Assembly (NCBI GenBank): GCA_025517525.1
Contig: JAOPJZ010000004.1
Coordinates: forward strand, 124,001 to 188,000
Length of the DNA: 64,000 bases
DNA from: Natronosalvus hydrolyticus
GTDB lineage: Archaea > Halobacteriota > Halobacteria > Halobacteriales > Natrialbaceae
Direction: 5' to 3'
The notes beneath the pieces were generated by a model. The model saw only the letters and a list, made by a program, of their open reading frames with translations. It searched no databases and was not told the DNA's origin. Position 1 is the first letter of the stretch. The number at the start of each line of letters is the position of its first letter. A program made the position numbers and the translations under genes. Below are positions 57,966 to 64,000 of the stretch, piece by piece.

Positions 57966-58838
57966 CTAACGCAACTCGATCTGGGCCATCGACCCATCAG
58001 CCGCGCGCAGTGTAATATCGACTTCCTCAGTTCGAGTCAGTGTTCCGCCTCCATCACCAGTTCGAAATCGGTCAAATTCGAACTCCTTTTCGTTTCCTTG
58101 CCCATCCCCGTTTGGTTCCAGTTCGACCACGTCATCGTTACTCGGTCTCACGAAGTCAACGATGCCCCCTCCGACCTCGATGACCTCCTGGACGATCTGT
58201 TCTTCAGTCGTTTCCAGAACGAGTATTTCGTCGTTGTGTCCTCCGACCTGAGTAGCCGGTGAATCAACCCAATCGACGCTTATCCCGTCGATTTCTACCG
58301 TTTGACCGCCTTCAAACTGCGTGTTTTCGAGCCTGAATTCGTATTTACCACTACCACCGACGTTCCGGACCGACCCCTCTACATCGCTGATCGCCGAGGC
58401 CTGCGGGATATCGAACGTTCGGTCGAGTTGGATCTCCCCTACTTTTTTGGTACCATTGAAAAGGCCTACTTCGACCTCGACGATCGCTGTGTCGTCCCGA
58501 CCCTGGATTTCGACTTCGCGTCGTTGACCGGGATCCAAATCGAAAATTACCGGTTCTTCGTACTCCCCGTCACCGTCAACGTCGAATTCGATGTCGTCGG
58601 TACTCGAGAGCGTCACTTCCATGCGGAAGTCATCACTGTTGTTCGTAAACGTTGGCGTCGTCCCCGCCTCGGTACCCTCGATGCCAAGAAGCGCGCTCGA
58701 ATCGGCCGCCGTTCCGATACCGACCGTTCGACCCGCGGTAACCTCGGTGAAGCCGAACGTCTCGGAAGCCATCGCCAGCGAGCCAGCGGCTATGAGACCG
58801 ATTGCGGATCGTCGGGATAGTTTACCCAAGTTTGGCAT
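57966..58838 (-). CDS. exported haloarchaeal surface protein, DUF1102-like
   Basis: The product has 290 residues. The N-terminus MPNLGKLSRRSAIGLIAAGS followed by LAMASETFGFTEVTAGRTVG is a Tat-like or SipW-like signal that ends in the aromatic/acidic FGFTEV motif. The mature part is a beta-rich, Asp/Glu-rich chain with two sandwich-like halves (FRMEVTLSSTDDIEFDVDGD, VEVEVGLFNGTKKVGEIQLD and GQTVEIDGISVDWVDSPATQ). It is likely secreted and may form or cap a fibre. It is on the minus strand, 13 bases downstream of the membrane HTH regulator gene, and faces away from the two small paralogues. Confidence 0.6.
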   Translation of the reverse strand: MPNLGKLSRRSAIGLIAAGSLAMASETFGFTEVTAGRTVGIGTAADSSALLGIEGTEAGTTPTFTNNSDDFRMEVTLSSTDDIEFDVDGDGEYEEPVIFDLDPGQRREVEIQGRDDTAIVEVEVGLFNGTKKVGEIQLDRTFDIPQASAISDVEGSVRNVGGSGKYEFRLENTQFEGGQTVEIDGISVDWVDSPATQVGGHNDEILVLETTEEQIVQEVIEVGGGIVDFVRPSNDDVVELEPNGDGQGNEKEFEFDRFRTGDGGGTLTRTEEVDITLRAADGSMAQIELR

Positions 58839-58850
58839 CGTAGATCATTT

Positions 58851-59390
58851 TTACGGCGGTCGTTCCCCCTGGCCCAACCGCATCCGGCGGTTCTCGAGGA
58901 CGTGCACCACAGCAGAAACGGCGAACAGGCCGACCAGTATCGTCGCCCAGCCCAGTAGTGGAACGGTTTCGGTTGGAATTACCTCGAGCCACAACCCGGC
59001 CAGCACGATGCCAGCCAACGCAGACAGACCCAGATAGTACACGCCCCAGGGGATCGAATCCTCGGGGACGACGTCGAGGTACACATCGAGCTCGCGGGCG
59101 TTTTCGGTGAGTTCGATCGTCCGATCGTCGAAGGTAACCATCTCCGCGCGCTCGAGCGTCGGCAGATGGGTCTGCTGGAGCGAGGTGTAAATCCGCTTTC
59201 GCTCCGTCGAGGTGAGTTCGGCGACGTCTTTCTCGAGTTCCCAGGCGGCGACGTGTTCGGCGAGTTCCCCGAGTTCGACGGGGTCTTCCTCGCGTTTGAG
59301 ATAGTGAATCGTATAGCGCCGGCGCTGATTGCTCAGCAGGCTAAAGACATCACCACGGCTGGTCCCCCCGGACGTGTGCTGTACACCCAT
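58851..59390 (-). CDS. membrane-bound DUF7344-type winged-helix regulator
   Basis: The product has 179 residues. DVFSLLSNQRRRYTIHYLKR is the start of the winged-helix domain, and RIYTSLQQTHLPTLERAEMV the recognition part. Two C-terminal hydrophobic helices follow (GVYYLGLSALAGIVLAGLWL and LGWATILVGLFAVSAVVHVL). The protein is therefore anchored in the membrane with its DNA-binding part in the cytoplasm. It lies in front of the fibre-like protein gene (13 bases) and is divergent (283 bases) from the two small precursors, so control of the cluster is plausible. Confidence 0.75.
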   Translation of the reverse strand: MGVQHTSGGTSRGDVFSLLSNQRRRYTIHYLKREEDPVELGELAEHVAAWELEKDVAELTSTERKRIYTSLQQTHLPTLERAEMVTFDDRTIELTENARELDVYLDVVPEDSIPWGVYYLGLSALAGIVLAGLWLEVIPTETVPLLGWATILVGLFAVSAVVHVLENRRMRLGQGERPP

Positions 59391-59673
59391 GAAACGTGTC
59401 GCTCGTAGTGATAGATTGCCAATTGGGACATATATCTCTGTTGGCCAACGTGCGTGAGCGTGACTCTCACGACGGCGTTCTCAAGCCTGGCCTGTAGCCT
59501 ATCACCGGCTCGAGTAGCGGCTTCAGCCTGGGCTTGAACGGCGGTATCAGTCGGTGTGAACCGGTTCGGGCACCCCAATACAAAGTGGGTAGGGTTGTGT
59601 AGTTTTGGATAAGAACTGCCTCGAGTAACTGGCGGTTACGGTTGCTCGAGCAGGTCGTACGGAGACATTACCA

Positions 59674-60198
59674 ATGAGAGCAAACAGACGCAACGTGTTG
59701 ATCGGACTGGGAACGATTGTCGCTGGCGGCGGAGCCGCACTCGGAACGGGTGCGTTCAGTACAGTCGAAGCACAGCGAACCGTCAATGTGAACATCATCG
59801 ATGAGACCGACCTCGCTGAGGAGTTCGTTGATGTAATATTCAACGCAGACAAGTACGAAAGTGTCGACACGGAAGAAGAGGTGGATACAGTAGATGGCGG
59901 CGACGGAATCAGCCTTGTCGCAAACGACGTGACGCTTGTGTTTGGGACTGAAGATAATGAGTTACCACCGAATGTAACCATCACGTACAACGACCTTTTC
60001 GACATTGTAAACGATGACGACGGTAATAGTACTAAGTTCGAAGTGAGTTTCGACGTAACGGGCGCAGATTCGGATTTCACCTTTACCCCCGACTCACCGA
60101 CAGTCCCTGCCAGTAATAACGAGACCGTTAGCCTGGATCTCGAGACAGCCGGTGTCAACGACTCCGGTACCCTCGAGATCACGATCACAGAGCAGTAA
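59674..60198 (+). CDS. small exported TasA/camelysin-like (DUF1102) surface subunit 1
   Basis: The product has 174 residues. The N-terminus MRANRRNVLIGLGTIVAGGG with AALGTGAFSTVEAQRTVNVN is a twin-Arg, Gly-rich signal that ends in the GTGAFST motif, very like SipW-processed precursors of TasA and camelysin. The mature part is a beta-strand rich domain (DGISLVANDVTLVFG, FEVSFDVTGADSDFTFT, SGTLEITITEQ at the end) without Cys. It is likely a secreted fibre or surface subunit. The next gene (60246) is a close paralogue, and a signal peptidase gene is 2 kb downstream. Confidence 0.7.
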   Translation: MRANRRNVLIGLGTIVAGGGAALGTGAFSTVEAQRTVNVNIIDETDLAEEFVDVIFNADKYESVDTEEEVDTVDGGDGISLVANDVTLVFGTEDNELPPNVTITYNDLFDIVNDDDGNSTKFEVSFDVTGADSDFTFTPDSPTVPASNNETVSLDLETAGVNDSGTLEITITEQ

Positions 60199-60245
60199 TA
60201 CAAAAACACCCCCTAAGGAGCCGACGACCCGGCTTCAAACACACT

Positions 60246-60770
60246 ATGAGACTCAACAGACGAAACGTACTGATCGGACTGGGAACGATTGTCGCAGGCG
60301 GCGGAGCCGCGCTCGGAACGGGTGCGTTCAGCAGCGTCGAAGCGACGCGAACCGTCGACGTCACGACCACAGGCGATGCTGGTGGTCTGGTCGGCCTGAA
60401 CATCACCGGCGCGCTAGAAGGCGAGGATGGTGACACAATCGAGTTCGATCTCGATAACCTCAACGTTGATGCAGTGACCCGATTCGAAGACGCATTCACA
60501 GTGACGAACAACAGAGAGAACGCAGGCGACGAAATCGACCTAACTATCGAGGACGGAGACGGTGTCGTCACCACGGACAACGCCGGAGGGGAGGGCACAG
60601 GAATGTATTTCGAAACGGACACCATCCCCGATGATCTGAATAATATCGCTGAAGACGGAGGGAGCGTCACGTTCGATATCGTGTTCAACCTCGAGGGGGA
60701 AACCACAACGGACGATGCTGACGGCGCAATCCCTGACGAAATAACCATCACCGCAGACGACAGCTCGTAA
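60246..60770 (+). CDS. small exported TasA/camelysin-like (DUF1102) surface subunit 2
   Basis: The product has 174 residues. It has nearly the same signal sequence as the preceding protein (RRNVLIGLGTIVAGGGAALG then TGAFSSVEATRTVDVTTTG) and the same length, but the mature part differs strongly (GGLVGLNITGALEGEDGDTI, DGGSVTFDIVFNLEGETTTD). The DNA for the signal regions is almost identical, while the rest has diverged. This suggests duplication or gene conversion of the 5' part. It is 47 bases after the first gene, in one operon. It is probably a second subunit of the same structure. Confidence 0.7.
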   Translation: MRLNRRNVLIGLGTIVAGGGAALGTGAFSSVEATRTVDVTTTGDAGGLVGLNITGALEGEDGDTIEFDLDNLNVDAVTRFEDAFTVTNNRENAGDEIDLTIEDGDGVVTTDNAGGEGTGMYFETDTIPDDLNNIAEDGGSVTFDIVFNLEGETTTDDADGAIPDEITITADDSS

Positions 60771-60912
60771 GGCGGCCAACCGGGCCGCTTAGTAGTGAAC
60801 TGGTCACAACGGAGTCGGAGGGAATTGACAGTGACCAGAACGCGAGCGCTTCGGATTGACGCACTACAGCCTGTTCGCCTCGTATCGTTGACAATTGTAA
60901 CGGAAATCCCAG

Positions 60913-62112
60913 ATGTTCGCTACCAAGATCCTATATTTCGGTGTGGCTGTTTGCCTGCTCGTCGGGCTTGCAGTCCCGACCGTAGCGATCACCGTGGGTT
61001 CAGACCCCGTCAATGACGAGGTCGCCCTCGAGCCAGTCGACGAACGGTATGCGACGATCGAAGACGGCGAACTCACGCTCACGGTCGACGTGTTCGACAA
61101 TGCGCAAACCACTATTCTCGAGGTGTTCACGATTACCGTCGGCGAGGACGTCGATGGAATCGAATCGGTGTGGATCGAACACCCGATCGATGGCGTCGAA
61201 TTTTACGCCGAGGATTCTGAGATTTCGAACGACTCTCGTCTCGAGCCCGCTGCAGGTGAGGAGATAACAGTCGGTGTGCTAGTCGACTCGACGGTAACGA
61301 AAGCGACCAGCGAGACGTTTTCGGTCCACGTTGCCTACGAGGACGGCGCGAGCGCACCGCCAGGTCCACCGGCGATGCCATCGCCCGACCCACTAGTCGC
61401 CGACGATGACGACGAAAGGGACGATGAACAAGCCAGCGGACCGTCACTGGTCGACCTCGAGGTCACTCCACTCGAGCTAACCGCCGGCGAGTCGGTCACC
61501 GTGACCGGGACCTACGAGGGCGGTGACAGCGACGAGGACGTAACCGCTGCGCTCACCGTCGATGGCGTCGTCGTGAGCCAGCAAACGGTGGCCGTGCCCG
61601 CGGATTCGACCGCCACCGTCACGTTCGAGCAGACGCTCGAGGACCCGGGGACGATCCCAGTCGGTATCGGTGACGAAGCTCGCGATGTCGAGGTTTCCGC
61701 GGTCGAAACGGACGAACCAGCCGCGAGCCTCACCGTCTCGAACGTCTCCCTGAACACCGGGCAGATCCAGCCCGGGGAGTCGGTGACGCTAACCGCCAAC
61801 GTGACCAACACGGGCGAACTTGCGGGCGAACGCACCTTCGACATCGTCGTCGGTGGCTTCGTCGTCGAAACGGTGACCGTCGACCTCGAGGCGGGTGAAA
61901 CGGAGACGGTGACCCTCGAGCGCACGTTCGAGAACGCCGGGACCTACAGCCTCGCGTTCGGTGGCGTCGATGCGGGTAGCGTCACCGTCGTCGAGTCGAC
62001 GCTCGTCTCGGCCTCGGTGACCGAACTGCCCGGTCAGACAGGCGTTGCCCTCTCGGTTCCGCTACTGTTTGGCTTCGGACTGTTTTTCTCGAGACGCATG
62101 GGCTGGACGTGA
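60913..62112 (+). CDS. secreted CARDB-type protein with C-terminal anchor
   Basis: The product has 399 residues. It has a Sec-type signal (KILYFGVAVCLLVGLAVPTV), a first beta domain (about 30-150), a Pro/Asp linker (PPGPPAMPSPDPLVADDDDE) and two CARDB-like Ig domains (about 175-265: VDLEVTPLELTAGESVTVTG; about 270-370: ASLTVSNVSLNTGQIQPGES). The C-terminus is hydrophobic (GVALSVPLLFGFGLFFSRRM), a membrane anchor. CARDB domains are cell-adhesion modules. It lies between the small precursors and the signal peptidase, so it may anchor the fibre to the membrane. Confidence 0.7.
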   Translation: MFATKILYFGVAVCLLVGLAVPTVAITVGSDPVNDEVALEPVDERYATIEDGELTLTVDVFDNAQTTILEVFTITVGEDVDGIESVWIEHPIDGVEFYAEDSEISNDSRLEPAAGEEITVGVLVDSTVTKATSETFSVHVAYEDGASAPPGPPAMPSPDPLVADDDDERDDEQASGPSLVDLEVTPLELTAGESVTVTGTYEGGDSDEDVTAALTVDGVVVSQQTVAVPADSTATVTFEQTLEDPGTIPVGIGDEARDVEVSAVETDEPAASLTVSNVSLNTGQIQPGESVTLTANVTNTGELAGERTFDIVVGGFVVETVTVDLEAGETETVTLERTFENAGTYSLAFGGVDAGSVTVVESTLVSASVTELPGQTGVALSVPLLFGFGLFFSRRMGWT

Positions 62113-62233
62113 CGTGACTCCGATGGCTGGAAGAAAACACGATAACACCCCGACCCGCTTGTCGGACCAATTAAGATTCTTCGGCCTCGAGAGAGGAACG
62201 ACTGTGAACGGCCTCGAGTGGGGTAAACAATAA

Positions 62234-63403
62234 ATGCAGGTGACGACAGCGCTCAAAGCCGGAGTCAGCCTCGTCGTCGGCCTCACCCTCGTCTTGCTCA
62301 TCGTCGGCCAACTGCTGGGCCAGCCGGTGTTGCTCGGCTATGTTGCGACGGGGAGCATGGAGCCGGCGCTGAACGCCGGCGACGGGTTCGTCGCCGTCCC
62401 GAGTATCGTTGCGGACGATCCGGAGCCCGGCGACGTCGTCGTCTTCGATGCCCAGACCTTGCACGAAGGTGGCCTGACCACACACCGCGTCGTCGAGGAG
62501 ACCGACGAGGGGTACGTAACCAAAGGCGACGCGAATCCGTTTACCGACCAGGACGGCGGTGAGCCCCCAGTCACCGACGGCCAGATCGTCGCCGTCGCCT
62601 GGCAGGTGAACGGGACGGTGGTCCGACTCCCGCATCTCGGCACCCTCATCATGAGCGTCCACAGCGTCGTCACCGCGGTTTTTGGACTGCTCGCCGCCCC
62701 ACTTGGTATCGCGGCCGCGTTCGACGCGGACGGCGCCGGTGCACTGCTCGTCGCCATCGGCATCGCACTGCTCGGTGTGGGGTTACTCCTCGAACGAACC
62801 GGGGCGACCGAGCGGGATACAGAACGGAAGACGAACCGTGAAAACGTCATCGGACTCTGGTCGGCGATTTCGATCGTCGTCCTGTTGCTCGCCGTGTTCG
62901 CGACCGCAGCGATGGTCATCCCCGCGGGTGGGGCAACCTACGAAGTGCTGGCCACGGAAAATCCGACAGCTGATCCACAAACTGCTGCCCCCGGAGAGGT
63001 GGCAACGGTGACGCGAACGATCGACAACAGCGGCTACGTGCCCATCGTCGCTGTGCTCGATACCTCGAGTGATGGTGTCGTGGTCGAACCACGGTCGACG
63101 ACCGTCTCACTGCAGAGCACGAGCGAGGTGTCGGTTTCGATGACGGCACCGGAAACCGAGGGCCGGGCAACGAAAACGGTGTACGAAAACCGGTATCTGC
63201 TCGTGTTGCCCCCCTCGGTGCTGGTCTGGCTCCACGGTATCCACCCCTTCGTTGCCATCGCCGCCGTCAACATCGTCGTCGTCGGCGTCGCCGTCGGAGT
63301 GATTCTGGCCCTCTTCGGTCGCAGTGACTTTCGACTGCGTTCGACCGGACGAAAGGTCTCGCTTTCGACGCGACTCGATCGACTCGTGGATAGGTGGCTG
63401 TAG
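62234..63403 (+). CDS. archaeal (ER-type) signal peptidase I with C-terminal extension
   Basis: The product has 389 residues. After the first helix (VSLVVGLTLVLLIVGQLLGQ) comes the S26B active site: Ser in YVATGSMEPALNAGDGFVAV, His in GLTTHRVVEE and the Asp motif YVTKGDANPFTD. This is the Ser-His-Asp form of SipW and ER signal peptidases, in contrast to the Ser-Lys form. Unusually, about 200 residues follow: two helices (around AVFGLLAAPLGIAAAF and GIALLGVGLLL), a further helix (AISIVVLLLAVFATAAMVIP), an outside Ig-like part and a last helix (IAAVNIVVVGVAVGVILALF). It is likely dedicated to the small precursors of this cluster. Confidence 0.85.
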   Translation: MQVTTALKAGVSLVVGLTLVLLIVGQLLGQPVLLGYVATGSMEPALNAGDGFVAVPSIVADDPEPGDVVVFDAQTLHEGGLTTHRVVEETDEGYVTKGDANPFTDQDGGEPPVTDGQIVAVAWQVNGTVVRLPHLGTLIMSVHSVVTAVFGLLAAPLGIAAAFDADGAGALLVAIGIALLGVGLLLERTGATERDTERKTNRENVIGLWSAISIVVLLLAVFATAAMVIPAGGATYEVLATENPTADPQTAAPGEVATVTRTIDNSGYVPIVAVLDTSSDGVVVEPRSTTVSLQSTSEVSVSMTAPETEGRATKTVYENRYLLVLPPSVLVWLHGIHPFVAIAAVNIVVVGVAVGVILALFGRSDFRLRSTGRKVSLSTRLDRLVDRWL

Positions 63404-63451
63404 TGGATTCACTCGAGCACGATGTTCGGTAGCAACGACAGATAGGGAATG

Positions 63452-63514
63452 TTGTAACAATTTACCGCCACCCGCCGACCCCGTTGTGGGCGATCGGCGG
63501 TACGTGACTACAAC
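63452..63514. repeat. nested palindromic element, copy 2
   Basis: Related to 46443-46523. Inner arms taccgccacccgcc and ggcgatcggcggta pair at 11 of 14 positions around the loop gaccccgttgtg. Outer arms gttgta and tacaac also pair. Arm sequences differ from copy 1, while loop and layout are kept. It lies between the signal peptidase and DUF5305 genes. Confidence 0.7.
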
Positions 63515-63639
63515 GATCCCTCTGAGCCACTACTGTTATACCGTTCGACACCCGAGTTATCAGCAATCGGTTCAGTCAGCGAAACGCGATAGATTGGACC
63601 TGAAGAAAAATCAGGTGGGGGCCTGACCGGAGGAACGTT

Positions 63640-64000
63640 GTGACCGAAACACCACGACTCGACTTGCTCATCGCCCAGCACGGGCGTTCGATACTGATCG
63701 CCTTACTCGTCCTCGGAGCGGTTGCACTGCTCGCAACCGGCTGGGTTATCGCGACCCCCGGAACCACGACGGTAACCGAAGAAATCGGCCAGCAGACGGT
63801 CGAAACCGACGTCGAAACGAGCGCCGAAGTCGTCGAGTCCGGGCTCTGGGAGGAAGGCACCCACCTGGAAAACAATCCTGCCTACATAACCAACGCAACC
63901 CCCGAGTTACAGGTGACTGCTGAAACCACCATGCCGACAGATGACACCACGGTTAGCCACGCAATTCAACTCAGATACGAGGCGAGCCGTGACGGCCAAG
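63640..64000 (+). CDS. DUF5305 family membrane protein, cut by the window end
   Basis: The first 120 residues are present, starting with the GTG at 63640, with gaggaacg just upstream. The first helix is SILIALLVLGAVALLATGWV and is followed by IATPGTTTVTEEIGQQTVET with an outside beta-rich part (SGLWEEGTHLENNPAYITNA, ELQVTAETTMPTDDTTVSHA). This matches the haloarchaeal DUF5305 family, often coded next to DUF1102 proteins and signal peptidases. The C-terminal helix is not in the window. It probably belongs to the same surface system. Confidence 0.7.
   Translation, partial: MTETPRLDLLIAQHGRSILIALLVLGAVALLATGWVIATPGTTTVTEEIGQQTVETDVETSAEVVESGLWEEGTHLENNPAYITNATPELQVTAETTMPTDDTTVSHAIQLRYEASRDGQ

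Follow-up and report, generated by a model that had tools for sequence, protein, structure and literature searches.

A haloarchaeal gene cluster in Natronosalvus hydrolyticus recognized from sequence as a Tat-fimbria (tafi) locus

The window analysed here, a 64,000-nucleotide stretch of Natronosalvus hydrolyticus DNA (assembly GCA_025517525.1, contig JAOPJZ010000004.1, positions 124,001 to 188,000), closes with a cluster of seven genes whose sequences assign it to the Tat-fimbriae (tafi) of haloarchaea, Tat being the twin-arginine translocation pathway. The genome is haloarchaeal, 4.54 Mb in 67 contigs, and its nearest named relatives are Natrialbaceae. The genes run from position 57966 to the window end, all at the coordinates given in an initial annotation of this DNA. 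A TafC-like precursor and a DUF7344 regulator on the minus strand are followed on the plus strand by a TafA-like and a TafE-like pilin precursor, a CARDB anchor, a signal peptidase, and a DUF5305 protein. The features, in window coordinates and with the basis of each in brackets, are as follows.

57966 to 58838, minus strand: TafC-like precursor, 290 residues, two predicted beta-domains, N-terminal F-x4-A-x-R motif FTEVTAGR (NCBIfam TafC)
58851 to 59390, minus strand: DUF7344 regulator of winged-helix type, oriented divergently to the pilin operon and containing two hydrophobic segments (PF24035 at 1e-28; hydrophobicity)
59674 to 60198, plus strand: TafA-like pilin precursor, 174 residues (NCBIfam TafA; structure model)
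59755 to 59778, plus strand: FSTVEAQR, TafA residues 28-35, proposed mature start and donor strand (conserved in alignment A2; 9P0A residue count; motif counts)
60246 to 60770, plus strand: TafE-like pilin precursor, 174 residues, homologue of the solved Tafi pilin (NCBIfam TafE; 9p0a_C at 1.6e-15)
60327 to 60350, plus strand: FSSVEATR, TafE residues 28-35, proposed mature start and donor strand (conserved in alignment A3; 9P0A; motif counts)
60913 to 62112, plus strand: anchor with Sec-type signal, TafF/TafE-like first domain, CARDB, and C-terminal hydrophobic segment (CARDB at 8.8e-10; profile comparisons)
62234 to 63403, plus strand: endoplasmic reticulum (ER)-type signal peptidase carrying an extra C-terminal region flanked by membrane segments (TIGR02228 at 1e-15; SEC11C match; alignment A8)
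62354 to 62356 and 62483 to 62485, plus strand: catalytic codons for Ser41 and His84 (alignment A8)
63640 to 64000, plus strand: membrane protein of the DUF5305 family, truncated at the window end (PF17231 at 3.5e-48; full length at L005 7641-8816)

The initial annotation had described most of these parts correctly, including the divergent membrane-bound helix-turn-helix regulator, the third precursor-like protein (here the partial TafC match), and the CARDB anchor. The anchor protein also has an N-terminal hydrophobic signal. The DUF5305 protein it reported is present, although its gene runs past the window end, with 391 residues at full length on the contig and an end equivalent to position 64815. 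Its DUF1102 label did not hold, as Pfam DUF1102 has no match on any window protein at E<=1, and only some relatives carry that name.

In NCBIfam release 20, the 59674 product matches TafA (1.1e-40, 139.9 bits, cut-off 190), the 60246 product matches TafE (1e-25, 90.5 bits, cut-off 155), and the 57966 product matches TafC over residues 6-69 only (1.2e-11, 44.3 bits, cut-off 410). All three score below the equivalog cut-offs, which are thresholds for naming; the pilin of the 9P0A type discussed below misses as well, with 77.3 bits on TafE (locus L087). These names lead to the Tat-fimbriae. According to the available text of PMC12687288, the haloarchaeal Tat pathway exports components of thin filaments called tafi, with TafA as their core component, and the system is cited there to Galeva et al., iScience 2025. 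A locus that passes all four cut-offs, L042 (TafA 250.6, TafC 567.6, TafE 224.6, and TafF 581.7 bits; models NF052520 to NF052523), shares with the window the regulator, the peptidase, and the DUF5305 protein. It differs from the window, whose TafA and TafE genes lie in tandem, in carrying TafE on the opposite strand, and also in the C-terminal half of TafC. The window anchor has a first domain homologous to TafF, while a CARDB stalk replaces the C-terminal half of TafF.

A solved filament is tied to the cluster through its second pilin. PDB entry 9P0A, released 2025-07-23, is titled 'Structure of Natrinema sp. J7-2 Tafi pilus'. A TafE profile of 35 sequences finds one strong match in the PDB, 9p0a_C 'Pilin' (4.7e-44), and the window TafE-like protein alone matches the same chain at 1.6e-15 over residues 1-153, with a near-identical twin-Arg signal. 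The TafA profile matches it at 1.1e-15 through no more than profile positions 1-57, which cover the signal and the residues after it. The 156 aligned 9P0A residues are identical to a 215-residue pilin of Natrinema gari JCM 14663 (L087), where the order is regulator (minus), then pilin, anchor, peptidase, and DUF5305 (all plus). The window shares this five-gene order and has two genes more, TafA ahead of TafE and TafC next to the regulator; the N. gari locus has a single pilin, with neither TafA nor TafC above the thresholds used. In a tree of 85 peptidases, whose bootstrap had not settled, the window peptidase falls within a 32-row Natrialbaceae set (97/87) that includes L087. We conclude from sequence and gene order that the cluster is a tafi locus, which adds one more member to a known system. 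No pili are known from the window's organism, and precursors that stay soluble or decorate the S-layer, with no fibre, might be imagined; the cluster is homologous to, and syntenic with, a locus whose pilin is known from a solved pilus, which makes this very improbable. The initial annotation's surface-fibre set in one cluster therefore stands as co-located fibre roles, though not in its family or its novelty, as tafi have been known since 2025.

The two pilin precursors agree at 32 of their first 35 positions, a stretch that holds the twin-Arg motif (NRRNVLIG in both), a Gly-rich core, and GTGAFS[T/S]VEA, just as the initial annotation had said of two paralogous small precursors. The mature parts are only distantly related, at 79.7% probability in profile comparison (reversed control 0.7%). 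Tat export is predicted for both precursors, and the genome encodes TatC. One 804-residue open frame elsewhere in the genome (G000:C21, 2871-5063) contains two TatC matches, a fused double TatC, with a third TatC beside it on the other strand. A structure model of TafA residues 27-174 (predicted local distance difference test, pLDDT, 89.9) is all-beta, with a predicted pilin-like domain. The TafC-like protein was modelled at pLDDT 83.0 and has seven non-self relatives. Other profile comparisons gave no support for kinship: TafA-TafC 0.5%, anchor-TafC 6.0%, TafA-anchor 15.9%, TafE-TafC 34.2%, TafA-TafF 23.5%, and TafC-TafF 12.5%. Proteins in the TafC position differ among loci at the C-terminus, with Laminin_G_3 in L042 (8543-9679) and FapA/bactofilin-like repeats, below cut-off, in L054 (4212-5102), as if tips had been exchanged between loci.

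The initial annotation placed the cluster with the TasA-SipW-TapA system of Bacillus. There are real likenesses: in the available parts of PMC10151520 and PMC10269814, that system has beta-sandwich fibre subunits, an ER-type signal peptidase dedicated to them, and, adjoining the cut, an N-terminal segment that is conserved. A true archaeal branch of it, with precursors of the TasA/camelysin family and SipW as peptidase, would explain the Gly-rich signal with GTGAF, the ER-type Ser-His peptidase, and a weak match of that peptidase to the SipW model (4.7e-08, 32.8 bits). However, the window signals look Tat-type, and the SipW-cognate signal model TIGR04088 has no match on the window precursors at E<=1, while it matches two of three scanned precursors of a separate locus in the same genome, on contig C11. 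The C11 peptidase scores 105.7 bits on the SipW model, whose cut-off of 190 is reached by neither peptidase. Because TIGR04088 and the SipW model separate the window locus from the C11 locus, TasA-SipW was set aside as the family of the cluster.

Comparison of folds bears on the same question. Among the TafA-model matches listed, AbpA of Pyrobaculum (7ueg_A) has the highest query TM-score (0.41; probability 0.82, E 0.033, rank 32), and AbpA is described in the available text of PMC9674648 as structurally related to TasA. The score is not distinguishable from those of other immunoglobulin-like folds, and the TafA profile has no sequence match to AbpA in the PDB (7UEG). Pfam camelysin has no match on the window proteins, and TasA and camelysin entries are absent among the 50 matches listed in each of the two TafA fold searches, an absence that excludes nothing; the matches listed are of middling quality. 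All told, we consider membership of the TasA system improbable.

The 62234-63403 product passes the archaeal signal peptidase model TIGR02228 (57.9 bits, cut-off 51.85) and matches human SEC11C (7p2q_A, E 0.011) and SEC11A (0.062) over the catalytic blocks. Ser41 and His84 are invariant in all 12 aligned peptidases (alignment A8, in which rows L049, L051, L053, L055, L056, and L057 include translated upstream sequence that leaves residues 41 and 84 unaffected), which points to the ER-type Ser-His enzyme that had been proposed. Hydrophobic segments and basic loops suggest that residues ~230-342 are extracytoplasmic. Six peptidases of the genome exceed the TIGR02228 cut-off: four of the cluster type (contigs C34, C66, C65, and C1), the SipW-like enzyme of C11, and a 201-residue protein on C29. 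With six such peptidases in one genome, the window enzyme is likely dedicated to its own cluster, where it would serve the pilins.

Where the signal ends can be approached through the solved pilus. Coordinates exist for 188 of the 215 residues of the 9P0A chain, whose alignment with the TafA model reaches residue 215. If the 27 missing residues are N-terminal, the mature pilin starts at Phe28, directly after GTGA. The residue count thus fits cleavage after GTGA, and FSxVEAxR would then be a mature N-terminal donor strand; the signal end at VEA given by the initial annotation would probably lie six residues too late. It could be argued instead that the pilins are cut after VEA by a general signal peptidase, the cluster peptidase serving other substrates or none. 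V-E-A fits an A-x-A-like site, Ala33 is invariant in both A2 and A3, and the separate 201-residue peptidase on C29 could act in this way. Set against this are the 9P0A count and the presence of a peptidase of the cluster type together with the pilins in all 20 tafi loci (described below), and we judge it unlikely. TasA itself, as far as the available text of PMC10269814 states, has Phe at P2', its second mature residue; the general Escherichia coli peptidase cleaves such a site inefficiently, and the enzyme that processes TasA is the dedicated ER-type SipW.

Several columns of FSxVEAxR are invariant or near-invariant in both pilin alignments (A2, A3). Across the 80 loci of the peptidase survey described below, G[AST]F....A.R is present in 84 of 90 TafE-type, 6 of 6 TafA, 2 of 7 TafC, and 0 of 44 anchor open reading frames; a looser form finds 85 TafE-type, 6 TafA, 3 TafC, and 2 anchor frames. 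The frames counted score >60 bits on their own profiles, some rows of which come from the same locus collection (L040-L059 overlap the named genomes). As read from these sequences, F-x4-A-x-R stands just after GTGA in pilins and is absent from anchors. A partial motif is retained in the L042 TafF, which weighs against taking this as a general rule. In TasA filaments, according to the available part of PMC10151520, each protomer inserts its N-terminal segment into the next one, and the residues conserved most strongly are found at the interface. By analogy, we infer that FSxVEAxR may be a donor strand through which the pilins of one locus interlock, and that the anchor would only accept.

The anchor contains a pilin-like domain. 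Its N-terminal domain matches TafF at 98.8% probability (4.9e-17, reversed control 0.7%) and TafE at 95.2% (2.5e-8, reversed control 0.3%); because of these first-domain matches, we read the protein as a pilin-like domain followed by CARDB and the C-terminal hydrophobic segment. In the 20 tafi loci, the anchor is TafF-type in 12 (searched with the TafF of L042) and CARDB-type in eight, and no locus has both.

These 20 loci were chosen by hand from TafA matches, mostly among the strongest but reaching down to weak ones. The underlying search of 391 Halobacteria genomes gave TafA matches at E<=1e-10 in 128, of which 24 pass the cut-off; many weaker matches cover the signal region only. DUF5305 and the regulator are each found in 18 of the 20 loci, with DUF7344 the closest regulator type in 18. 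A second, named survey chose loci by peptidase: a scan with the 12 aligned peptidases found 301 relatives, and the best 80 were kept. DUF5305 accompanies 78 of these 80, lying <=600 bp from the peptidase in 56; the regulator is found in 72, a TafA- or TafE-type pilin >60 bits in 72, the anchor by its own profile in 44, and TafA and TafC >100 bits in six each. Among the 61 loci >18 kb, the counts are DUF5305 61, regulator 58, pilin 59, and anchor 39, with DUF5305, regulator, and pilin together in 56. The genes of the cluster are associated more than by chance. DUF5305, the usual partner of the peptidase, occurs in 318 of the 391 Halobacteria genomes; none of the 14 control genomes has it. A tafi-like cluster of haloarchaeal type also lies on L108, a contig filed as a Mollicutes metagenome-assembled genome; the peptidase of this cluster groups with that of Natronomonas, and the contig is probably mislabelled.

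Nearly all of the Natrialbaceae loci listed have a TafE-type pilin; the occurrence of TafA is patchy and varies between sister loci. TafA was considered as a marker of one clade and rejected, since the peptidase tree requires 6 changes for 7 rows and 98 of 500 shuffles are as low. Because the 9P0A pilin is TafE-type, we read TafE as the likely backbone in this lineage, to which TafA would be added as a second pilin in some loci. The roles described for Haloarcula, with TafA as shaft and TafE as adapter only, might apply in the window's organism too. NCBIfam names TafE a fimbrial adapter protein, TafA is called the core component of tafi in the available text of PMC12687288, and the window keeps both genes. 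Yet the solved Natrinema pilin is TafE-type, TafA exceeds 100 bits in only six of the 80 loci (scans of loci, not whole genomes), and of the sister loci L070 and L083 (100/100) one has TafA and the other does not. This assignment of roles thus seems somewhat unlikely here.

We regard it as probable that such a tafi locus works by Tat export of its pilins, a cut at GTGA by its own peptidase, and donor-strand joining onto a TafF-like likely anchor. The two twin-arginine precursors, exported by Tat as predicted, would be cut after GTGA by the cluster's own Ser-His peptidase; the cut would expose an N-terminal strand that may fill the groove of the next subunit by donor-strand exchange. The TafF-like protein, the likely membrane anchor, lacks the motif and could act as basal acceptor, in which case the N-termini would point to the cell. 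TafC may be the terminal (tip) subunit, DUF5305 and the extra region of the peptidase may help assembly, and the DUF7344 protein presumably regulates the operon.

A more detailed model can be offered as a tentative possibility. In it, assembly would be gated by the dedicated peptidase, whose cut at GTGA|F frees the F-x4-A-x-R donor, with the donorless, pilin-derived anchor as basal acceptor. Subunits would be added at the membrane with their N-termini cellward, DUF5305 and the extra region of the peptidase would form a platform, and TafA and TafC would be exchangeable modules on a TafE backbone. The assignment of the cluster to tafi ties a solved archaeal pilus to a full and widespread parts list, with a testable role for each part. 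The literature searched, to which the tafi paper itself did not belong, held no paper on 9P0A, and the same search did not find in print that the anchor is related to TafF and TafE, that pilins but not anchors carry the motif, or that TafA is patchily distributed; much of what is added here may be in print elsewhere.

The same genome holds three more diverged clusters of this kind, on contigs C66, C65, and C1, with peptidases on other branches of the tree. If the mechanism is right, four diverged copies of the machine in one genome would build distinct fibres. The C66 cluster (L006 3273-11517) keeps the window order, with a TafC-like small precursor and a regulator on the minus strand, then two TafE-type pilins, anchor, peptidase, and DUF5305 on the plus strand, and one further membrane-type gene before the peptidase. 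In C65 (L007 5104-15607) and C1 (L008 6027-14852), peptidase and DUF5305 lie beside several larger twin-arginine precursors of GAF type, up to 581 residues long in C65. The separate SipW-cognate locus on C11 (L009 961-9274 and on) has two DUF7344-type regulators nearby. To the left of the window cluster lie housekeeping-type genes, among them an RLI/ABCE1-like ATPase and an EMC6-like protein. Downstream of it and outside the window, L005 10062-11381 encodes what we take to be a TnpB-type transposon protein.

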